Assembly: GCA_021161545.1 (NCBI GenBank)
Contig: JAGHAJ010000288.1
Span: 1 to 8,216 of the forward strand
DNA length: 8,216 bases
Direction: 5' to 3'
Source of the DNA: Synergistota bacterium
GTDB taxonomy: Bacteria; Synergistota; JAGHAJ01
Every line of letters starts with the position of its first letter. The stretch's first letter is position 1. The notes beneath the pieces were generated by a model. That model had not been told where the DNA came from, made no database searches, and saw nothing but the letters and a program-made list of their open reading frames with translations. Positions 1,241-7,977 of the stretch are shown one piece after another. The translations under genes were made by a program, and so were the position numbers.

Positions 1241-1250
1241 CCCCTCCTTA
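1241..1250 (-). promoter_or_regulatory. Strong ribosome binding site of gspD overlapping the gspC stop codon
   Basis: The minus strand reads TAAGGAGGGG here, and its first three bases are the gspC stop codon. The AAGGAGG core lies 13 nt before the ATG at 1229 but only 7 nt before the in-frame GTG at 1235, the usual optimum. The real GspD start may therefore be the GTG, adding two residues (Val/Met-Arg) to the signal peptide. This is seen directly; which start is used is inference. Confidence 0.7.
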
Positions 1251-2042
1251 TCTAACATCATACTCAAGCACTATATCTTTATTCCCCCTCGTTATCCTCA
1301 CTCTTATAATGTCAGACGACATTGCAGACTTCATAATGTTGAATATGTCCTGTGGCTGCTTCAGAGATATACCATTTATCTCCCTTACTATGTCTCCTGT
1401 TCGTAAACCCATGCGCCTGAGCACAGATTTAGAAGAAAGCCACCTTATCACATATCCTTTAATCTCCTTATCTCGGAAGTAAGGAGCTACATTAACCCTT
1501 GTCAGGAGCTTACTCACATTGCTGAAGTGAGAAAACAGGAAAGAGCGTGAAATTACATACCTATTATTACCCTCACTCCTTATATCTGCAACCTCATACT
1601 TACCTACAGTCCGCCCTGTGGTGCTTCCTTTAGAGTAAACAAATGTTAGATATAAGTGATCCCTACCTCTGCCAAATATCACCCTATCCCTTTGTATCTT
1701 CAAAACCTTTAAGTTACCAAAACTATCTCCCTCTTTCACCACTTTTATTTCTCCAGTGGCTACATCCCTTATCACAGCTCTATTCTCCTCTCCCACAGAT
1801 ATGCCGACAAGGAGAAGCTCGCCACCAGTGATGTTTTTAAGCACATGCGTTTCACCTACATCGGCATCGAGGATTTTCCATATCAGAGAATAGTCTTTTT
1901 CATGCTTGGCCGAAGTGGCTGTAGTAATTCTCCTTTTTTCTACTCTCTCTATTCCACCAAGATTCCTGTTAAAGTAGTCAACTATCACACCAGATGTAAA
2001 GAAAGCAAGTAAGATGACCATCGCAAACGGGAGGAATCTCAT
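1248..2042 (-). CDS. gspC: Type II secretion system protein GspC, inner-membrane connector with HR and PDZ domains
   Basis: GspC links the inner-membrane platform to the N0 domain of the secretin. Counting from ATG at 2042, the protein has 264 residues. It has one N-terminal membrane segment at about 4-22. The periplasmic HR domain lies at about 50-135, with the family pattern LLLVGIS..GE...AVI.D..TG, then GD at 105-106 and DRVIF at 119-123. A C-terminal PDZ domain lies at about 195-264 (GYVIRWL, MGLRTGDIV, INGISL). No cysteine is present. The frame can be extended to a TTG at 2066, but that would place the ribosome binding site inside the gene. The ATG at 2042 overlaps the gspN stop as ATGA, the junction type used elsewhere in this run, so it is preferred. 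The match of domain order and neighbours makes the call firm. Confidence 0.93.
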   Translation of the reverse strand: MRFLPFAMVILLAFFTSGVIVDYFNRNLGGIERVEKRRITTATSAKHEKDYSLIWKILDADVGETHVLKNITGGELLLVGISVGEENRAVIRDVATGEIKVVKEGDSFGNLKVLKIQRDRVIFGRGRDHLYLTFVYSKGSTTGRTVGKYEVADIRSEGNNRYVISRSFLFSHFSNVSKLLTRVNVAPYFRDKEIKGYVIRWLSSKSVLRRMGLRTGDIVREINGISLKQPQDIFNIMKSAMSSDIIRVRITRGNKDIVLEYDVR

Positions 2043-2596
2043 AGTCTGCCTTTCACCTCCACCCAATTACCTTCATTCACACCGATAGGTAAAAACCTCT
2101 CAAGCAATTTGTACAATACACCAGAAGGTTTAAGCTTTAACTCATAGCGAATGTGTCTTCCAGACAGATAAACCTTACCCATTGCTTCAATCCCTTTGCC
2201 CACAACGCGAATCTCCCTAACCTCCCAACCATCTCCTCGCCTCTTCAGTACCCCCTTACCCTCAGACATGTAAAGAACAGGTATGAAAGCACTCCCAACC
2301 TTGATATCGGTAGCATTCACCGTGAACTCCAACTTAAGCGAAAGAAGTCCCATTAATCTTGGCCTAACACGAACTCTCTGTATATCTACATTTACTCCCT
2401 CATACTCTATGCGAAGCTCCTTCAGGTATGCCGTTGCATAAAGCAGATTGATGTCCACATTCCCGACAGTGATACGTACATTGTGACCTTGTGCCATATC
2501 CTGCAGAAGCGATTCTATAGCACGGGTGTAAGGAAATCTCAACATTACAAACACCACAAGTGCCAAGACAAAAACAACTACCAGCCATTTGTACAA
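2039..2596 (-). CDS. gspN: Type II secretion system protein GspN, starting at TTG
   Basis: GspN is an optional T2SS component. It has one inner-membrane helix and a periplasmic beta-rich domain, and its exact job is unsettled. The protein has 185 residues, shorter than the roughly 250 of classical GspN/PulN. A membrane helix lies at about 4-19. Next come the family-like stretch VRITVGNVDINLLYATAYLKELRI (40-63), RLMGLLSLKLEF (80-91) and a C-terminal LKPSGVLYKLLERFLP (155-170). No cysteine is present. The frame has no ATG before residue 18, and the TTG at 2596 is well placed behind AGGAGGG, so TTG is the likely start. It lies 3 nt after the gspM stop and overlaps gspC by 4 nt. The call rests on topology, LLSLKLEF-type motifs and position between gspM and gspC. 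Confidence 0.8.
   Translation of the reverse strand: MYKWLVVVFVLALVVFVMLRFPYTRAIESLLQDMAQGHNVRITVGNVDINLLYATAYLKELRIEYEGVNVDIQRVRVRPRLMGLLSLKLEFTVNATDIKVGSAFIPVLYMSEGKGVLKRRGDGWEVREIRVVGKGIEAMGKVYLSGRHIRYELKLKPSGVLYKLLERFLPIGVNEGNWVEVKGRL
2049..2060 (-). promoter_or_regulatory. Purine-rich ribosome binding site deciding the gspC start
   Basis: The minus strand reads GGAGGTGAAAGG inside the last codons of gspN. GGAGG is 13 nt and AAAGG is 6 nt from the ATG at 2042. The tract lies downstream of the alternative TTG at 2066 and so could not serve it, which favours the ATG. Confidence 0.6.
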
Positions 2597-2599
2597 AAT

Positions 2600-3046
2600 C
2601 TATGCCCTCCTACTCACTACAATAACCACATCTATGGTGTGCTTCCCGTGTTCCGTTTTTATTCTCATACTCTCAATACCCACTCCACTGTAGTGTTCTG
2701 CCATGTATAGAAGGAAGGTTACGAGATTTTTGTAATCTATGCCATTCAACCTTACTATATATCCTCTATCACCAGAAGGCGTCACATCCACGAGATTCCC
2801 TCCAAGTCCCGTATCTTTTGCAACCTTACTTAGTAGCGTAAAGAGGTCTGTTTTACCCACAGAATCTACTCTCATCCCTATCTTATACTCCGTAACAATT
2901 CTTTGTAACTCATTTAGCCGGTCTCTTGCAGATTTCAACTTTCTCCCGTAAAGGGTAGCCTCTTGGGTAAAGTAAAAGATACCGAAAGCAAGGCACACTG
3001 ACACAATTCCCACCACAATAAAAAACCTACTCTTTAACATCTGCAT
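2600..3046 (-). CDS. gspM: Type II secretion system protein GspM, inner-membrane platform
   Basis: GspM pairs with GspL in the T2SS inner-membrane platform. The 148 residues are close to the family norm. They comprise a short cytoplasmic start, one membrane helix at about 8-27, a likely coiled coil at about 34-54 (RKLKSARDRLNELQRIV), and a periplasmic ferredoxin-like domain at about 66-148. Family features include LFTLLSKVAKDTGLGGNL (68-85), then GYIVRLNGIDYKNLVTFLLYM (95-115) and a final strand pair after a GKH turn. The start at ATG 3046 overlaps the gspL end by 20 nt and has AAGGTGAGG about 10 nt upstream. A second ATG two codons later (3040) is possible but more distant from that site. 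Sequence identity in this family is always low, so the call rests on fold pattern and position after gspL. Confidence 0.88.
   Translation of the reverse strand: MQMLKSRFFIVVGIVSVCLAFGIFYFTQEATLYGRKLKSARDRLNELQRIVTEYKIGMRVDSVGKTDLFTLLSKVAKDTGLGGNLVDVTPSGDRGYIVRLNGIDYKNLVTFLLYMAEHYSGVGIESMRIKTEHGKHTIDVVIVVSRRA
2605..2611 (-). promoter_or_regulatory. Ribosome binding site supporting the TTG start of gspN
   Basis: AGGAGGG on the minus strand sits within the last codons of gspM, 8 nt before the TTG at 2596. The nearest ATG (2588) is in a different frame with no recognisable product, so this site supports the non-ATG start. Confidence 0.6.
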
Positions 3047-4202
3047 CTATAACAAACCTCACCTTCTTTTTATCAGCACCCTGCCTTACACTTCTTATAG
3101 ATACAGCAGTAAATATACTCTGTTTATCCATATTATCCTTAACCCGTTTTACCACATCAAGTCCTATCCCGATGGCAGTGAATTCTACTTCACTACCATT
3201 CCACCATATAGAGTCTATTCTCACTCCATATCCACCTACAGCCCTGGCAAGGGCATAAAGCAAGTCCAGCACTCTGTATGAATTACCTGCTCTCCTACCC
3301 ATAAGTTTAATCTTCTGTCTTGCATTATAAAGTGGGTCATCTATCCCAACGCTACCAAAAACCTTTAAGTAAGTAGAGCTAATCTTTTTCTTGACTTCAC
3401 TATATTCACCCTTCAACTCATAATAGTCCATCACAGCAGAAAAAAAGAGCACACCCATTATGAGAACACCAACAACTGCAGATACTTTCAGCTCATTACC
3501 GCTTAAAGAACTTCTACCTGCTGAGAGAAGATTTACTACCTCAGTATGCATGAACTCCCATTGAGGACTCCCTACCTGCTTTGCTCCCGGGAAAGGACCG
3601 CAAATGGCATATATACCATCAAGTCTACCTTCAAACATTGAAATCACAGATGTTACATCTTGCTCACTCTCTAATGACTTATGAAAAACAATAGACATAC
3701 CATCAAATACCACCACATAGTTACTACCTATCAACAACTTTAAGCCATACCCAGACTCATCTCTTAACACCTCGTTGAAAGTAGCAACTGCTCCCAGAAA
3801 GTCAAAACCGGCAGAAACCGGTTTACTACCATGACTCCCCCACCACTGTACTTCATTCTGCACTATCTCCCTCTTGGCTGCCACAACGATAACCTTTCCC
3901 ATGTCCTTCTGTGCATCAACGAAGTAAAAGTCATACAAATAGTCCTCAAGCTTTCCGGGGAGTTCAGATAAAAGCTCAACCCTTACTGCATCCCGCACCT
4001 TCTTATACTCAGAAAACGGAAACGCAAACTCCTTCGTGATTGCATACCTCTCTGGCAGTACTACATGTACCTTTCGTTTGGATACAACTCCCTCTATATC
4101 AGCAGATGCATGGGTATCAAACTCCTTCAATTCCCCCTGCATCCATATCCACACTTCCTCCATACCCCTTTTGACAACGAGTCTCTTACTCAAACCCAAC
4201 AT
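3027..4202 (-). CDS. gspL: Type II secretion system protein GspL, platform protein with actin-like cytoplasmic domain
   Basis: GspL anchors the secretion ATPase GspE to the inner membrane and binds GspM. The 391 residues match the usual size. An actin-like cytoplasmic domain spans about 1-225, with the family pattern VHVVLPERYAITKEFAFP (45-62), RVELLSELPGKLEDYLYDF (74-92) and GKVIVVAAKREIV (102-114). The segment EVVNLLSAGR (221-230) precedes the membrane as in other GspL proteins. The membrane helix is at about 239-257. The periplasmic part has a coiled stretch at about 260-280 and a ferredoxin-like domain at about 308-391 (VLDLLYALARAV, IDSIWWNGSEVEFTAIG). Only one cysteine (C201) is seen. 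ATG 4202 has AAGG 7 nt upstream and overlaps gspK by 17 nt. PilM/PilN-type pilus proteins share folds, but the single-chain fusion of both domains is the GspL form. Confidence 0.93.
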   Translation of the reverse strand: MLGLSKRLVVKRGMEEVWIWMQGELKEFDTHASADIEGVVSKRKVHVVLPERYAITKEFAFPFSEYKKVRDAVRVELLSELPGKLEDYLYDFYFVDAQKDMGKVIVVAAKREIVQNEVQWWGSHGSKPVSAGFDFLGAVATFNEVLRDESGYGLKLLIGSNYVVVFDGMSIVFHKSLESEQDVTSVISMFEGRLDGIYAICGPFPGAKQVGSPQWEFMHTEVVNLLSAGRSSLSGNELKVSAVVGVLIMGVLFFSAVMDYYELKGEYSEVKKKISSTYLKVFGSVGIDDPLYNARQKIKLMGRRAGNSYRVLDLLYALARAVGGYGVRIDSIWWNGSEVEFTAIGIGLDVVKRVKDNMDKQSIFTAVSIRSVRQGADKKKVRFVIDADVKE

Positions 4203-5028
4203 AAAGCAGCCTTCCCCCAGCTTTTTCCCTCTTCATAACCACTCTATACCTTCGCAGGACACCGTCTCTCTGCAACCTCACATCCGCTGTGATATACTCT
4301 GCCTTAAATGTCAGAATAGAACCTATACGATAAAGGACAGAAGGAGGTACCCCCATCTTCATCAGCTCTCTAATAGAGTGTATCTTTCTCTTTCTCCTAA
4401 TAGTTACAATCCTTTCAACCATGTCCTTTGTCATTCTATCATCAAGCGACAACAAAAGCAACGCAGGAGCATAATTAACATTTATTTTACCCAGAGAATA
4501 CACAGTTACATAAGGAGCCATCTTCTCATAATAACTTTCTGTGATATGTGATACCTGAAGCAATTCTCTTGTGGAGAGTAACATCCTATTAGGCACATCT
4601 CTTTCATTGCCACCAATCCTCTCAGCATCATCTGTATCCATGTAATCCAGCACACATGCGGTATAATCAGGTAATCTCAAGCTCCCGCAAAGTCGCCTAA
4701 ACACGGAAACATACAGAGGGTCTGCAGTCCTGCAATCCGGTAGCAATAGAGAATTCAAGTTTAGAAGGCCATCATTGGAGGTTATACGAATCAAAACCCC
4801 CTCATCCGCCCAGTCTCTACCAACCATTTGTGAAACAGAAAACTTCTTCATTACATCAGAAAGCGATCTAATCACAGCTCTCAAGGAGAATGTAATCTCC
4901 TTACTCGCCCTATAGCTATTAGATGCTTTTACACTCATTCTTACAGCATAGGACATAAAGAGCACTATAGGAACAAGAACGGAAAAAACGATAATCGTCG
5001 AGATTAAAACAGACGCCTTTCTCCCCAT
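4186..5028 (-). CDS. gspK: Type II secretion system minor pseudopilin GspK, pseudopilus tip
   Basis: GspK caps the pseudopilus in a complex with GspI and GspJ. The 280 residues are somewhat shorter than typical (about 320). The prepilin leader is MGRKA, with the helix SVLISTIIVFSVLVPIVLF directly after. The cut would fall between A5 and S6, so the -1 residue is Ala rather than the usual Gly. As in all GspK, the mature protein lacks Glu5. The globular part carries the family hallmarks NDGLLNLNSL (85-94), CVLDYMDTDDAERIGGNE (125-142, the acidic stretch near the known calcium site), TRELLQV (153-159), PYVTVYSLGKINVNYAP (172-188; most relatives have NTA, here NYA), and helix-hairpin-helix-like MVERIVTIRRKRKIHSIREL (203-222). 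Three cysteines (99, 114, 125) stand out in this cysteine-poor run. Its ATG shares one base with the gspJ stop (TAATG). Confidence 0.93.
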   Translation of the reverse strand: MGRKASVLISTIIVFSVLVPIVLFMSYAVRMSVKASNSYRASKEITFSLRAVIRSLSDVMKKFSVSQMVGRDWADEGVLIRITSNDGLLNLNSLLLPDCRTADPLYVSVFRRLCGSLRLPDYTACVLDYMDTDDAERIGGNERDVPNRMLLSTRELLQVSHITESYYEKMAPYVTVYSLGKINVNYAPALLLLSLDDRMTKDMVERIVTIRRKRKIHSIRELMKMGVPPSVLYRIGSILTFKAEYITADVRLQRDGVLRRYRVVMKREKAGGRLLYVGFE

Positions 5029-5597
5029 TACAGTTTCAGCCTTATCTTGTCCCTCAGGTTCTGCTCTATTTCCGAGGCCTTGACTCTGAGTTCCAACACC
5101 AGATATTGTGGTAATGCCTCGTACTCTTTGTAGATTCCACTATAGATAATTCTTCCTTTATCCTGAAGATAGAGCCTCACGCTTTCAATATCCGTTATAA
5201 GGATGTGTGCCTTATTCTTATTAAAGCCGTTGGGTTTACCATCCACAGGTACATCTACCTGAGAGTAAACTTTACTTCCTTTAATCCAGTAAGTCCTCTC
5301 CACCACTCCAAGGCCCTTGCAAGAATAAGATGTCACCACAAAGAGGAGCAACCCATCTCCTCTATCAGGCGGTATGTAAAGATAGGTATAATCAGCAGGC
5401 AAAGAAGGTATGAGTCCGGTAATAGAAGCATTAAGGTCAAGGTCAAATGCAATAAGCATCCTGTTCAGTTCAGAATTTTCCTTTACAGATAGGTATCCCA
5501 CCACCGTTCCATGAAACACACCAAAAAGAGACAACAAAACCACCACAATAATAGAAACTGCAACGAGCAGCTCTACCAGAGTAAACGCCTTTTTCAA
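5028..5597 (-). CDS. gspJ: Type II secretion system minor pseudopilin GspJ, starting at TTG
   Basis: GspJ is part of the I-J-K tip complex of the pseudopilus. The 189 residues include a very short type IV prepilin leader (MKKA), then FTLVELLVAVSIIVV, with Glu5 of the mature protein present. The -1 residue at the prepilin peptidase site is Ala instead of Gly. The globular part follows the family pattern: LNRMLIAFDLDLNASITGLIP (44-64), GDGLLLFVVTS (80-90), RTYWIKGSKVYSQVD (101-115), LITDIESVRLYLQDKG (133-148) and LPQYLVLELRV (162-172). Translation begins at TTG 5597, which overlaps the gspI stop as TTGA. A very strong Shine-Dalgarno sequence 7 nt upstream and the short leader it produces both support this start. 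It is followed directly by gspK. Confidence 0.94.
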   Translation of the reverse strand: MKKAFTLVELLVAVSIIVVVLLSLFGVFHGTVVGYLSVKENSELNRMLIAFDLDLNASITGLIPSLPADYTYLYIPPDRGDGLLLFVVTSYSCKGLGVVERTYWIKGSKVYSQVDVPVDGKPNGFNKNKAHILITDIESVRLYLQDKGRIIYSGIYKEYEALPQYLVLELRVKASEIEQNLRDKIRLKL

Positions 5598-5863
5598 TAA
5601 TCTACCTCCTCAAACACAAAGCCATTCACCACAAAACGGTATTTTTTCAGCCTGATGGGGGGGCTACCCATATATCCAATCATCTTACCCTTTGACGGTT
5701 TATGCAATCGAAGAATAGTCCACTCATCTACAGCCATTCTCAAAGATAGAGCATACTTCTCGTTCTTTATGGAAGAAACTACCGCAGAAAGGATAGCACT
5801 ACCTAATGTTGCAATAACAACTACTGATATCAGGACTAATATAAGGCTGAAACCGCCTTTCAT
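5594..5863 (-). CDS. gspI: Minor pseudopilin, probably GspI, short and lacking Glu5
   Basis: This 89-residue protein starts with the prepilin leader MKGG, followed by FSLILVLISVVVIATLGSAIL. It would be cut by prepilin peptidase after G4. Mature residue 5 is Leu, whereas GspI and most pseudopilins have Glu there. After the N-terminal helix, LRMAVDEWTILRL (41-53) fits the GspI pattern around A-x-x-x-W/N...L. The remainder is short and ends in a strand-like KYRFVVNGFVFEEVDY, so the protein is about 30 residues smaller than usual GspI. Position immediately before gspJ supports GspI; GspH or an atypical pseudopilin cannot be excluded. The ATG overlaps the preceding stop as ATGA, with only a weak ribosome binding site, so coupling to the upstream gene is likely. 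A run of seven C (minus strand) encodes S-P-P at 67-69. Confidence 0.72.
   Translation of the reverse strand: MKGGFSLILVLISVVVIATLGSAILSAVVSSIKNEKYALSLRMAVDEWTILRLHKPSKGKMIGYMGSPPIRLKKYRFVVNGFVFEEVDY
5604..5611 (-). promoter_or_regulatory. Strong ribosome binding site of gspJ
   Basis: GAGGAGGT on the minus strand lies inside the last codons of gspI, exactly 7 nt before the TTG start at 5597. It is the strongest site by spacing and match in the pseudopilin genes and may offset the weak TTG initiation codon. Confidence 0.7.
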
Positions 5864-6549
5864 TTCTCAGACTTAAAGAGCTTTTTTACAGCTAACCTGA
5901 GTGCAGTAAAGGAGAGAAATTCTTTTTGTCCCGAGACAGTTCCCCTGAATGAGGCTATCGCATATCTGCTGTATGTGAGCTTATCGCCGTGATAGTAAGC
6001 TATACCTATTGCAGAGATACCCTGTCTGAGATTAAATATAGCAGGTATAATCAGGTCTGGCTTGGAAAGGTCCACAGGAAAAGCGGCAAGGAGTGTCGGG
6101 ACAAAAATAATGCCATGCCTGTAAACAACGAGTTTCACCACATCTGCATCAAGGCGTTCTGCAACCTGACCGATATCCTTAGATGCCATAGGCAGAAGAA
6201 AACTTGCATTTCTTGGCTTAAAGTGGAATGGCCTTTTAATAGTATATTCTATGCTCTCCTTACTGTACCCCAATGACCACAACTCTTCTGCAAGTTTCTG
6301 TGGATTATTTGCATTGCTCTTTATCTCCCTGATGAGTTTCATATCCTTTAACACGGAAACAACTTCATCCATGGGAAGTACTATCTTACCCTGTTTAGAA
6401 AACTCAGCAGATACCAGATAATAAAAGTCATTCAGCAGCTGAGATTCCAGTGGTATTCCATACGGCGGCAAGATTGCAATTCTATCACCTGCATGAGTAA
6501 CCCCACCCATAACCAACACTAAAAGCAACACCCATAGCGCCCTTTTCAT
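5860..6549 (-). CDS. Exported protein of unknown function at the head of the T2SS gene run
   Basis: The 229 residues start with a clear signal peptide (MKRALWVLLLVLVMGGVTHA, cut likely after A20). There is no lipobox cysteine and no other membrane segment, so a periplasmic or outer-membrane-associated location is expected. I do not recognise the family. The mature start DRIAILPP, an early helix (LLNDFYYLVSAEF), and AERLDADVVKLVVY (130-143) resemble the alpha/beta layout of TolB N-terminal, CsgG or LpoB-type domains, in which a strand 'aDvVv' follows a helix. That is only a fold-level guess. A Pro-rich, hydrophobic stretch IIFVPTLLAAFPVDLSKPDLIIPAIF (147-172) may be an insertion. No cysteine is present. 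The gene starts 15 nt after cysS with AGGAGGG 8 nt upstream, and its stop overlaps gspI as ATGA. A role in T2SS assembly or substrate handling is inferred from context only. Confidence 0.85.
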   Translation of the reverse strand: MKRALWVLLLVLVMGGVTHAGDRIAILPPYGIPLESQLLNDFYYLVSAEFSKQGKIVLPMDEVVSVLKDMKLIREIKSNANNPQKLAEELWSLGYSKESIEYTIKRPFHFKPRNASFLLPMASKDIGQVAERLDADVVKLVVYRHGIIFVPTLLAAFPVDLSKPDLIIPAIFNLRQGISAIGIAYYHGDKLTYSRYAIASFRGTVSGQKEFLSFTALRLAVKKLFKSEK

Positions 6550-6564
6550 CCATGCATCCCTCCT

Positions 6565-7977
6565 CTACACAACTTTCCACCTCGTGCCAAACTTTGTATC
6601 TTCTAAAACGACACCCATCTCTCTCAACCTCTCTCTTATCTCATCTGCAACCTCCCAGTTCTTATTCTTTCTCGCTTCCTCCCTTTCTCTTATGAGCCTT
6701 TCTATTTCCTGCACATCAAGGTCTTTGGATTTCGACTTCTCTTCAAAGATTCCCAAAACCGTATTTACAGAGAGAAGGGCTTCCCTCAACTTCTGTAAGA
6801 CCGTCTTCTTCGGATTACTCGAAAGGTAAGGACCAAGTTCCCTAATAGTACTGAAAACAGCAGCAACTGCCTTAGGCGTATTGAAATCGTCATCCATTGC
6901 CGAAGAGAACTCGTTAAGTAGGGTATCAGCAAGTTCAAGACTGGTAAAGTCCTCTTTACTCCTTGGCTCTACCATTATATCTCTTGATAACATATCTTCT
7001 ATATTGTAAAAGAAATTCTGCAATCTCTGTAAGCTTGATTCCACAGAACGAAGGAGTTCATCGGAGAAGTTAATCGGGCTTCTATAGTGTGCAGATAGCA
7101 TGAAGAGCCTTATAGCCATAGGTCGATACCTCTTAAGTGCTTCCCTCGCTGTGAGGAAGTTCCCCAGAGATTTCGACATCTTCTCTTGATCTATCAAAAG
7201 ATAAGCGTTGTGCAGCCAGTAATTGACAAATTTTCTTCCCGTAGCAGCTTCTGACTGAGCTATCTCATTCTCATGGTGGGGAAATATCAAGTCAGACCCA
7301 CCGCAGTGAATGTCAAAAGGCACCCCAAGATATTTCATCGACATTGCTGAACACTCTATGTGCCAACCCGGCCTTCCCCTTCCCCATGGACTGTCCCAGA
7401 ACGGCTCTCCCTCCTTTGTCGCCTTCCAGAGAGCAAAGTCCAGAGGACTCTTCTTACGTGTATCTACCTCTATTCTTGCACCAGACTGCAACTGCTCTAT
7501 AGATTGCCCAGAAAGCCTGCCATAACCATCAAATTTCATAACATCATAATATACATCCCCATCAACAACATAAGCAAATCCTTTATCCATAAGCACCTGA
7601 ATGAGATTTACTATCTCACCTATATGCTCGGTAGCACGTGGATATACAGATGCTCTCTTTATGCCAAGCGCATCCGCATCCTCAAAGTATGCCTTTATAT
7701 AGCGCTCCGCTACCTCGTTCGTGCTCACACCAAGCTCCCTCGCACGATTTATTATCTTGTCATCTACATCGGTAAAGTTCTCCACGTAGGTAACATCAAA
7801 TCCCTTGAACTCGAAGTACCTTCTAAAGACATCAAAGACAATAAAGGGTCTTGCATTGCCTATATGAAAGTAATTGTACACAGTGGGACCACATACATAC
7901 ATACCAACCTTACCGCTACTAACGGGTATAAACTCTTCTTTTCTTCTATTCAGCGTGTTAAATAGATAAATAGCCAT
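6565..7977 (-). CDS. cysS: Cysteinyl-tRNA synthetase
   Basis: This cytoplasmic class I aminoacyl-tRNA synthetase charges tRNA-Cys with cysteine using ATP. The 470 residues match the bacterial norm. The class I signature HIGN is at 38-41 and the KMSKS loop at 266-270. The zinc-binding residues that select cysteine thiolate are all present: C29, C209, H234 and E238, set in GMYVCGPTVYN, GWHIECSAM and FPHHENEIAQ. The catalytic Rossmann core covers about 20-300. A helical DALR-type region with MDDDFNTPKA (361-370) follows, and the tRNA-binding tail ends EDTKFGTRWK. The ATG at 7977 is followed directly by AIYLFNTL, the standard CysS beginning, and AGGGAGAG ends about 7-9 nt upstream. It is the first gene after the predicted promoter, and the next gene begins 15 nt past its stop, so it probably shares its transcript with the T2SS genes. 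Confidence 0.98.
   Translation of the reverse strand: MAIYLFNTLNRRKEEFIPVSSGKVGMYVCGPTVYNYFHIGNARPFIVFDVFRRYFEFKGFDVTYVENFTDVDDKIINRARELGVSTNEVAERYIKAYFEDADALGIKRASVYPRATEHIGEIVNLIQVLMDKGFAYVVDGDVYYDVMKFDGYGRLSGQSIEQLQSGARIEVDTRKKSPLDFALWKATKEGEPFWDSPWGRGRPGWHIECSAMSMKYLGVPFDIHCGGSDLIFPHHENEIAQSEAATGRKFVNYWLHNAYLLIDQEKMSKSLGNFLTAREALKRYRPMAIRLFMLSAHYRSPINFSDELLRSVESSLQRLQNFFYNIEDMLSRDIMVEPRSKEDFTSLELADTLLNEFSSAMDDDFNTPKAVAAVFSTIRELGPYLSSNPKKTVLQKLREALLSVNTVLGIFEEKSKSKDLDVQEIERLIREREEARKNKNWEVADEIRERLREMGVVLEDTKFGTRWKVV

Follow-up and report, generated by a model that had tools for sequence, protein, structure and literature searches.

It is probable that protein X, a 229-residue protein encoded between cysS and the pseudopilin genes of a T2SS cluster, belongs to the cell envelope, is exported by Sec and not lipidated, has a fold of the TolB-N/CsgG/GNA1162 type and may serve as a scaffold or assembly factor close to the outer membrane, and that its T2SS neighbourhood is lineage-specific. 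The window, that is the whole stretch of DNA analysed, is an entire contig of 8216 bases. The MAG to which it belongs measures 1.58 Mb, is 82% complete and is the only representative of family f1. The features of the window are collected in Table 1.

Table 1. Genes and protein X segments located in the window, with the basis of each assignment.
Feature	Position	Strand	Basis
cysS	6565..7977	-	TIGR00435, 1e-177; 15 nt upstream of protein X
protein X	5860..6549	-	229-aa ORF; homologues in 4 genomes; fold from models; predicted export
protein X, predicted Sec signal peptide (residues 1-20, MKRALWVLLLVLVMGGVTHA)	6490..6549	-	sequence and hydropathy; AlphaFold helix 2-15
protein X, hydrophobic Pro-rich segment (residues 147-172)	6034..6111	-	low-confidence insert between two core strands
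gspI-like short pseudopilin (89 aa)	5594..5863	-	position and N-terminus; no family match above cut-off
gspJ-like pseudopilin	5028..5597	-	N_methyl PF07963 over cut-off; weak gspJ match
gspK	4186..5028	-	PF21687, 4.5e-11; NF037980, 4.4e-22
gspL	3027..4202	-	NF041617, 4.1e-10
gspM	2600..3046	-	PF04612, 2.5e-4
gspN	2039..2596	-	TIGR04411, 4.4e-10
gspC, with PDZ	1248..2066	-	NF041515, 1.5e-23; PF17820
gspD, cut by contig end	3..1235	-	TIGR02517, 9.6e-81; N0 PF21305

The protein X frame runs from ATG to TGA, contains no cysteine codon and is preceded by a GGAGG motif 9 nt upstream of the start codon. It lies on the minus strand, and the plus frame across 5860-6549 is packed with stops. The GC and GC3 contents of the gene (0.423 and 0.413) resemble those of the neighbouring genes (0.40-0.45). 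This likeness, together with homologues in four other genomes, indicates that protein X is the product of a real gene, which is present in a single copy in the genome. The N-terminus, MKRALWVLLLVLVMGGVTHA/GD, was recognised by eye and from its hydropathy as a predicted Sec-type signal peptide with an AxA-like cleavage site, THA. Thus, the original prediction of an exported protein devoid of a lipobox at this place agrees with the reading frame. The hydrophobic, proline-rich segment that it pointed out is also present: residues 147-172 read IIFVPTLLAAFPVDLSKPDLIIPAIF and include 4 prolines. In alignments, the homologues of family f3 carry at this position a longer, strongly conserved Gly/Ala-rich insert.

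Scans of protein X against Pfam and NCBIfam matched no model. The same scans of its homologues returned nothing credible, the sole hint being FlgT_M at 0.032 for one of them, and sequence searches of the PDB found no relatives. Among 185 genomes of the phylum, homologues were found in four other genomes, all of family f3, and none was detected in the other 180. A search of genome contigs with the sequence of protein X itself gave no match, and a search with the homologue profile found bacterium GBS-1 and bacterium 42_11, both members of f3. No relative was found in the viral contigs and plasmids searched. Three weak matches (L006, L007, L009) were set aside as spurious because they are short stretches in unrelated genes, for example secF, a gene for a glycosyltransferase and a frame on the strand opposite cysS; a further weak match, L008, has an E value of 0.03. 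In full-length alignments, the f3 homologues are 24-32% identical to protein X; they are 60-67% identical to the GBS-1 protein. A profile built from the four f3 homologues alone gives protein X 43.6 bits, against at most 7.0 for 2000 shuffles of its sequence, and hhalign assigns a probability of 97% to the match between protein X and the homologues over 108 columns. Significant homology covers about residues 21-150. Judged from these sequence comparisons, the relationship of protein X to the four f3 proteins is distant but secure, and the protein family is known from five members.

AlphaFold2 models of protein X and of the GBS-1 homologue were examined, three sequences being used. The model of protein X has a mean pLDDT of 55.9, with residues 142-229 below 50, and that of the homologue a mean of 65.4, with core blocks at about 85-95. 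The order of elements in the homologue is strand-helix-strand-helix-helical insert-helix-three long strands-last helix, the helical insert being typical of the protein X family. The same order is seen in the model of protein X, which is a weak model. The models were then compared with known structures by VIA Z. For protein X the best match is GNA1162 (Z 6.6, 124 of 139 residues, 3.5 A), followed by LpoB; taken alone, a Z of 6.6 for such a model is within background. The homologue model reaches Z 8-13 with many members of the TolB-N/CsgG group, which fills the top of its match list: FlgT (Z 12.8, 147 residues, 4.4 A), GNA1162 (Z 12.2, 118 residues, 2.7 A), PelC (Z 11.5, 132 residues, 3.8 A), HpaA (Z 11.2, 141 residues, 3.3 A), TolB (Z 10.9, 118 residues, 2.4 A), LpoB (Z 10.5, 118 residues, 2.7 A), CsgG (Z 9.8 to 10.2) and TraT (Z 9.8, 119 residues, 2.8 A). 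Foldseek, run with the same model, gave GNA1162 at 8e-7, HpaA at 1e-5 and PelC at 6e-5. CsgG and TolB-N share one Pfam clan (PMC3173608). Through the homologue model, protein X shows the alpha/beta element order of the TolB-N/CsgG/GNA1162 superfamily, and its predicted fold is of this type. A CsgG/TolB-N-like layout had been offered earlier as a guess, which structure prediction and fold search now support. By predicted fold, the protein X family is a new, very divergent and lineage-restricted branch of a known fold.

What, then, of the T2SS genes next to which protein X is encoded? Its TGA overlaps the ATG of gspI by 4 nt (ATGA, 5860-5863), as had been noticed. However, gspI and gspJ also overlap by 4 nt, and several other gene pairs of the cluster by 1 to 28 nt. 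Since overlaps are ordinary in this cluster, the one at protein X is no sign of a special coupling, and the stoichiometric co-production with pseudopilins that had been deduced from it does not follow. The window copies of gspL, gspN and gspC match NCBIfam SYNERG models, which suggests that the phylum is probably Synergistota. Two further observations concern the pseudopilins of the window. The prepilin segment of the gspI-like protein is GG/FSLILVLISVV, and its FSLIL motif has a leucine at position 5, where a glutamate is nearly universal in prepilins. GspK starts with MGRKASVLISTIIVF, where the usual kind of prepilin cleavage site is absent.

In all four f3 genomes, the gene of the homologue stands by itself between a polyprenyl synthase (ispA-like) gene, transcribed in the opposite direction away from it, and an SDR gene that is transcribed towards it. 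No T2SS gene was found near it on the contigs fetched, and cysS is located elsewhere. On those fetched contigs that extend far enough, it is adjoined by dxs, a TlyA-like gene, an NAD kinase gene and recN (names given by sequence inspection). In one of these genomes, G006, the homologue and the SDR gene are separated by a gene (L040:9199-9735) whose 178-aa product looks exported. In the window genome, the neighbour of ispA is a geranylgeranyl-reductase-like gene. As protein X is moreover a single-copy gene, it has been relocated in one lineage or the other.

Conversely, the T2SS loci fetched from three f3 genomes (G002, G006 and G008) contain no homologue of protein X. The order in G002 is K-L-M-N-C-D-E-F-G-H; the G008 locus is cut inside gspK by the contig end and is otherwise arranged as in G002; that of G006 comprises D-E-F only, on a 5.7-kb contig. 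Neither GspK nor a full GspC was found in the G006 genome, and the gene upstream of its gspD (L037) is a repetitive, coiled-coil-like frame with FKDEM repeats, not gspC. In five other T2SS loci of the phylum, the corresponding place is likewise free of any X-like gene. T2SS gene content varies in the phylum (L036, L042, L043, L045): the complete f3 operon starts at gspK, with no gspI or gspJ upstream, and other families have a gspJ-like gene before gspK, some of them with a gspI-like gene between gspC and gspD. GspD scores above the curated cut-off in 115 of the 185 genomes, three of which have a detectable protein X homologue. In GBS-1 (98% complete), the secretin match reaches only 6e-34, against 1e-136 to 1e-141 in sister genomes; there is no GspK match and the GspC match is only PDZ-sized. 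Its ATPases are one full-length GspE/PilB-class protein and one PilT-like protein, one GspE/PilB-class protein fewer than in its sisters; G002 and G006 encode next to gspD another full-length ATPase, which scores above the GspE cut-off. Judged by GspD, GspK and GspE, GBS-1 thus has no recognisable T2SS, and since it has a homologue, X-type proteins do not need a T2SS.

These data bear on the proposal that protein X is a dedicated T2SS accessory of the window lineage, recruited from an ancestral TolB-N-fold envelope protein, which would help secretin localisation or the handling of the pseudopilus or of a substrate in the periplasm. The gene is on the same strand as the cluster, 15 nt from cysS and overlapping gspI, and no terminator-like site was found on that strand in the interval to cysS; it is single-copy, the ispA neighbour in its genome is another gene, and among its fold relatives PelC, CsgG and FlgT work for machines of the outer membrane. 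A dedicated component would, however, be conserved in T2SS loci and depend on the T2SS, whereas the four homologues all lie outside such loci, one of them in a genome with no recognisable T2SS, and protein X is absent from every other T2SS locus examined. With the loci of the three f3 genomes and the five others lacking it, protein X is not a conserved neighbour of T2SS genes, although a linkage kept within f1, represented by the window genome alone, may exist. Gene overlaps are ordinary in the window cluster, and classical pilotins are lipoproteins, whereas protein X has no cysteine. The dedicated role originally proposed is therefore unlikely, the homologues found outside T2SS loci speaking against it even if they come from few genomes.

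A bolder variant may be envisaged, in which a TolB-N-fold ring protein would have been built into the T2SS of the window lineage to serve, free of lipid, as a scaffold for the secretin or in place of a pilotin. T2SS pilotins of the GspS/AspS type are lipoproteins that bind the C-terminal S-domain of the secretin; having no cysteine, protein X has no lipobox either. A part of this kind is not known from any T2SS, and a literature search on a T2SS link of the TolB-N-type fold, or on T2SS in the phylum, gave nothing useful. This variant is quite improbable.

The fold relatives themselves suggest other functions. The GNA1162-like lipoproteins (PF05643, PDB 4hrv) rank first or close to first among the fold matches of both models. 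However, protein X has neither lipobox nor cysteine and carries an extra helical insert. No sequence match of protein X and its relatives to PF05643 was found at E values up to 10; across the phylum this model gave sub-threshold stretches only, with none in the protein X genomes. PelC, the ring lipoprotein of Pel export (PDB 5t10, 5t11, 9h80), shares its fold with the homologue (Z 11-11.5). It forms a dodecamer ring in which a loop contacts the outer-membrane partner (PMC12141448). In contrast to PelC, protein X has no lipid anchor and no pel genes nearby; a ring of protein X would be a proposal by analogy. The TolB N-terminal domain and CsgG also share the fold of the homologue (Z 10.9 and about 10), but protein X lacks the beta-propeller of TolB and a sequence match to it, as well as the second membrane hairpin of CsgG. 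Neither protein X nor its homologues match CsgG PF03783, and no signal emerged (1.6%) when the family was compared, profile to profile by hhalign, with the CsgG proteins that the protein X genomes encode. The lipidated N-terminal cysteine of CsgG has no counterpart in protein X. FlgT (PDB 3w1e) and LpoB (4q6l), with Z of 12.8 and 10.5 for the homologue, have periplasmic or outer-membrane partners; no flagellar or penicillin-binding-protein genes were seen near any copy of protein X, which is a single-domain protein and, unlike LpoB, no lipoprotein. Among the fold relatives known at the outer membrane, lipoproteins predominate, and protein X differs from them in this respect.

Since the homologue finds some of its best fold matches in PelC and CsgG, it might be imagined that protein X is itself a channel or ring exporting a fibre or a polysaccharide. 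In CsgG, a first membrane hairpin lies between core strands and a second one between the last strand and the last helix. The hydrophobic insert of protein X falls between core strands, at the place of the first. However, in the homologue model the place of the second is a short loop that leaves no room for it, which makes a CsgG-type pore unlikely. Furthermore, protein X has no lipobox, none of the five copies has curli or Pel genes beside it, and four of the five genomes encode a separate CsgG-family protein. An exporting channel is thus very improbable. A conserved protein of 457-467 aa is found in the window genome and in three f3 genomes (L049-L052), in which an N-terminal CsgG domain is joined to a TPR-like C-terminus by a linker that is rich in proline or of low complexity; its gene adjoins that of a protein of about 310-320 aa. 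Finally, although the f1 copy is known just once and from an 8.2-kb MAG contig, a chance open frame or assembly join without function is hardly conceivable, being already refuted by a homology that spans the length of protein X, and a chance ORF or a foreign insertion is ruled out by this homology and by composition, the GC3 being that of the neighbours, the ribosome site good and the base composition even along the whole contig.

Hence, we favour the view that protein X has a general place in the envelope of two related lineages. As several proteins with the TolB-N-type fold act on the inner face of the outer membrane, some of them as rings, protein X may act there too, as a scaffold or assembly factor. 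CsgG and TraT are oligomers, and the core sheet of protein X could likewise pack into homo-oligomers or against partners. The hydrophobic segment 147-172 would make contact with the membrane or with a partner, much as PelC reaches PelB through its D-loop. Taken alone, this mechanistic part, with its oligomer, membrane contact and scaffold role, is put forward tentatively and by analogy. The place between cysS and the pseudopilin genes would be specific to the lineage, perhaps allowing co-expression with the T2SS; protein X would not be a conserved T2SS part.

Because the superfamily is broad and well known, the gain is modest. Protein X, annotated by no model, is here assigned a predicted fold and a small family. 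The present study also corrects an inference drawn from operon structure: across the genomes compared, in which family f1 is represented by the window genome alone, the link between protein X and the T2SS is not conserved.
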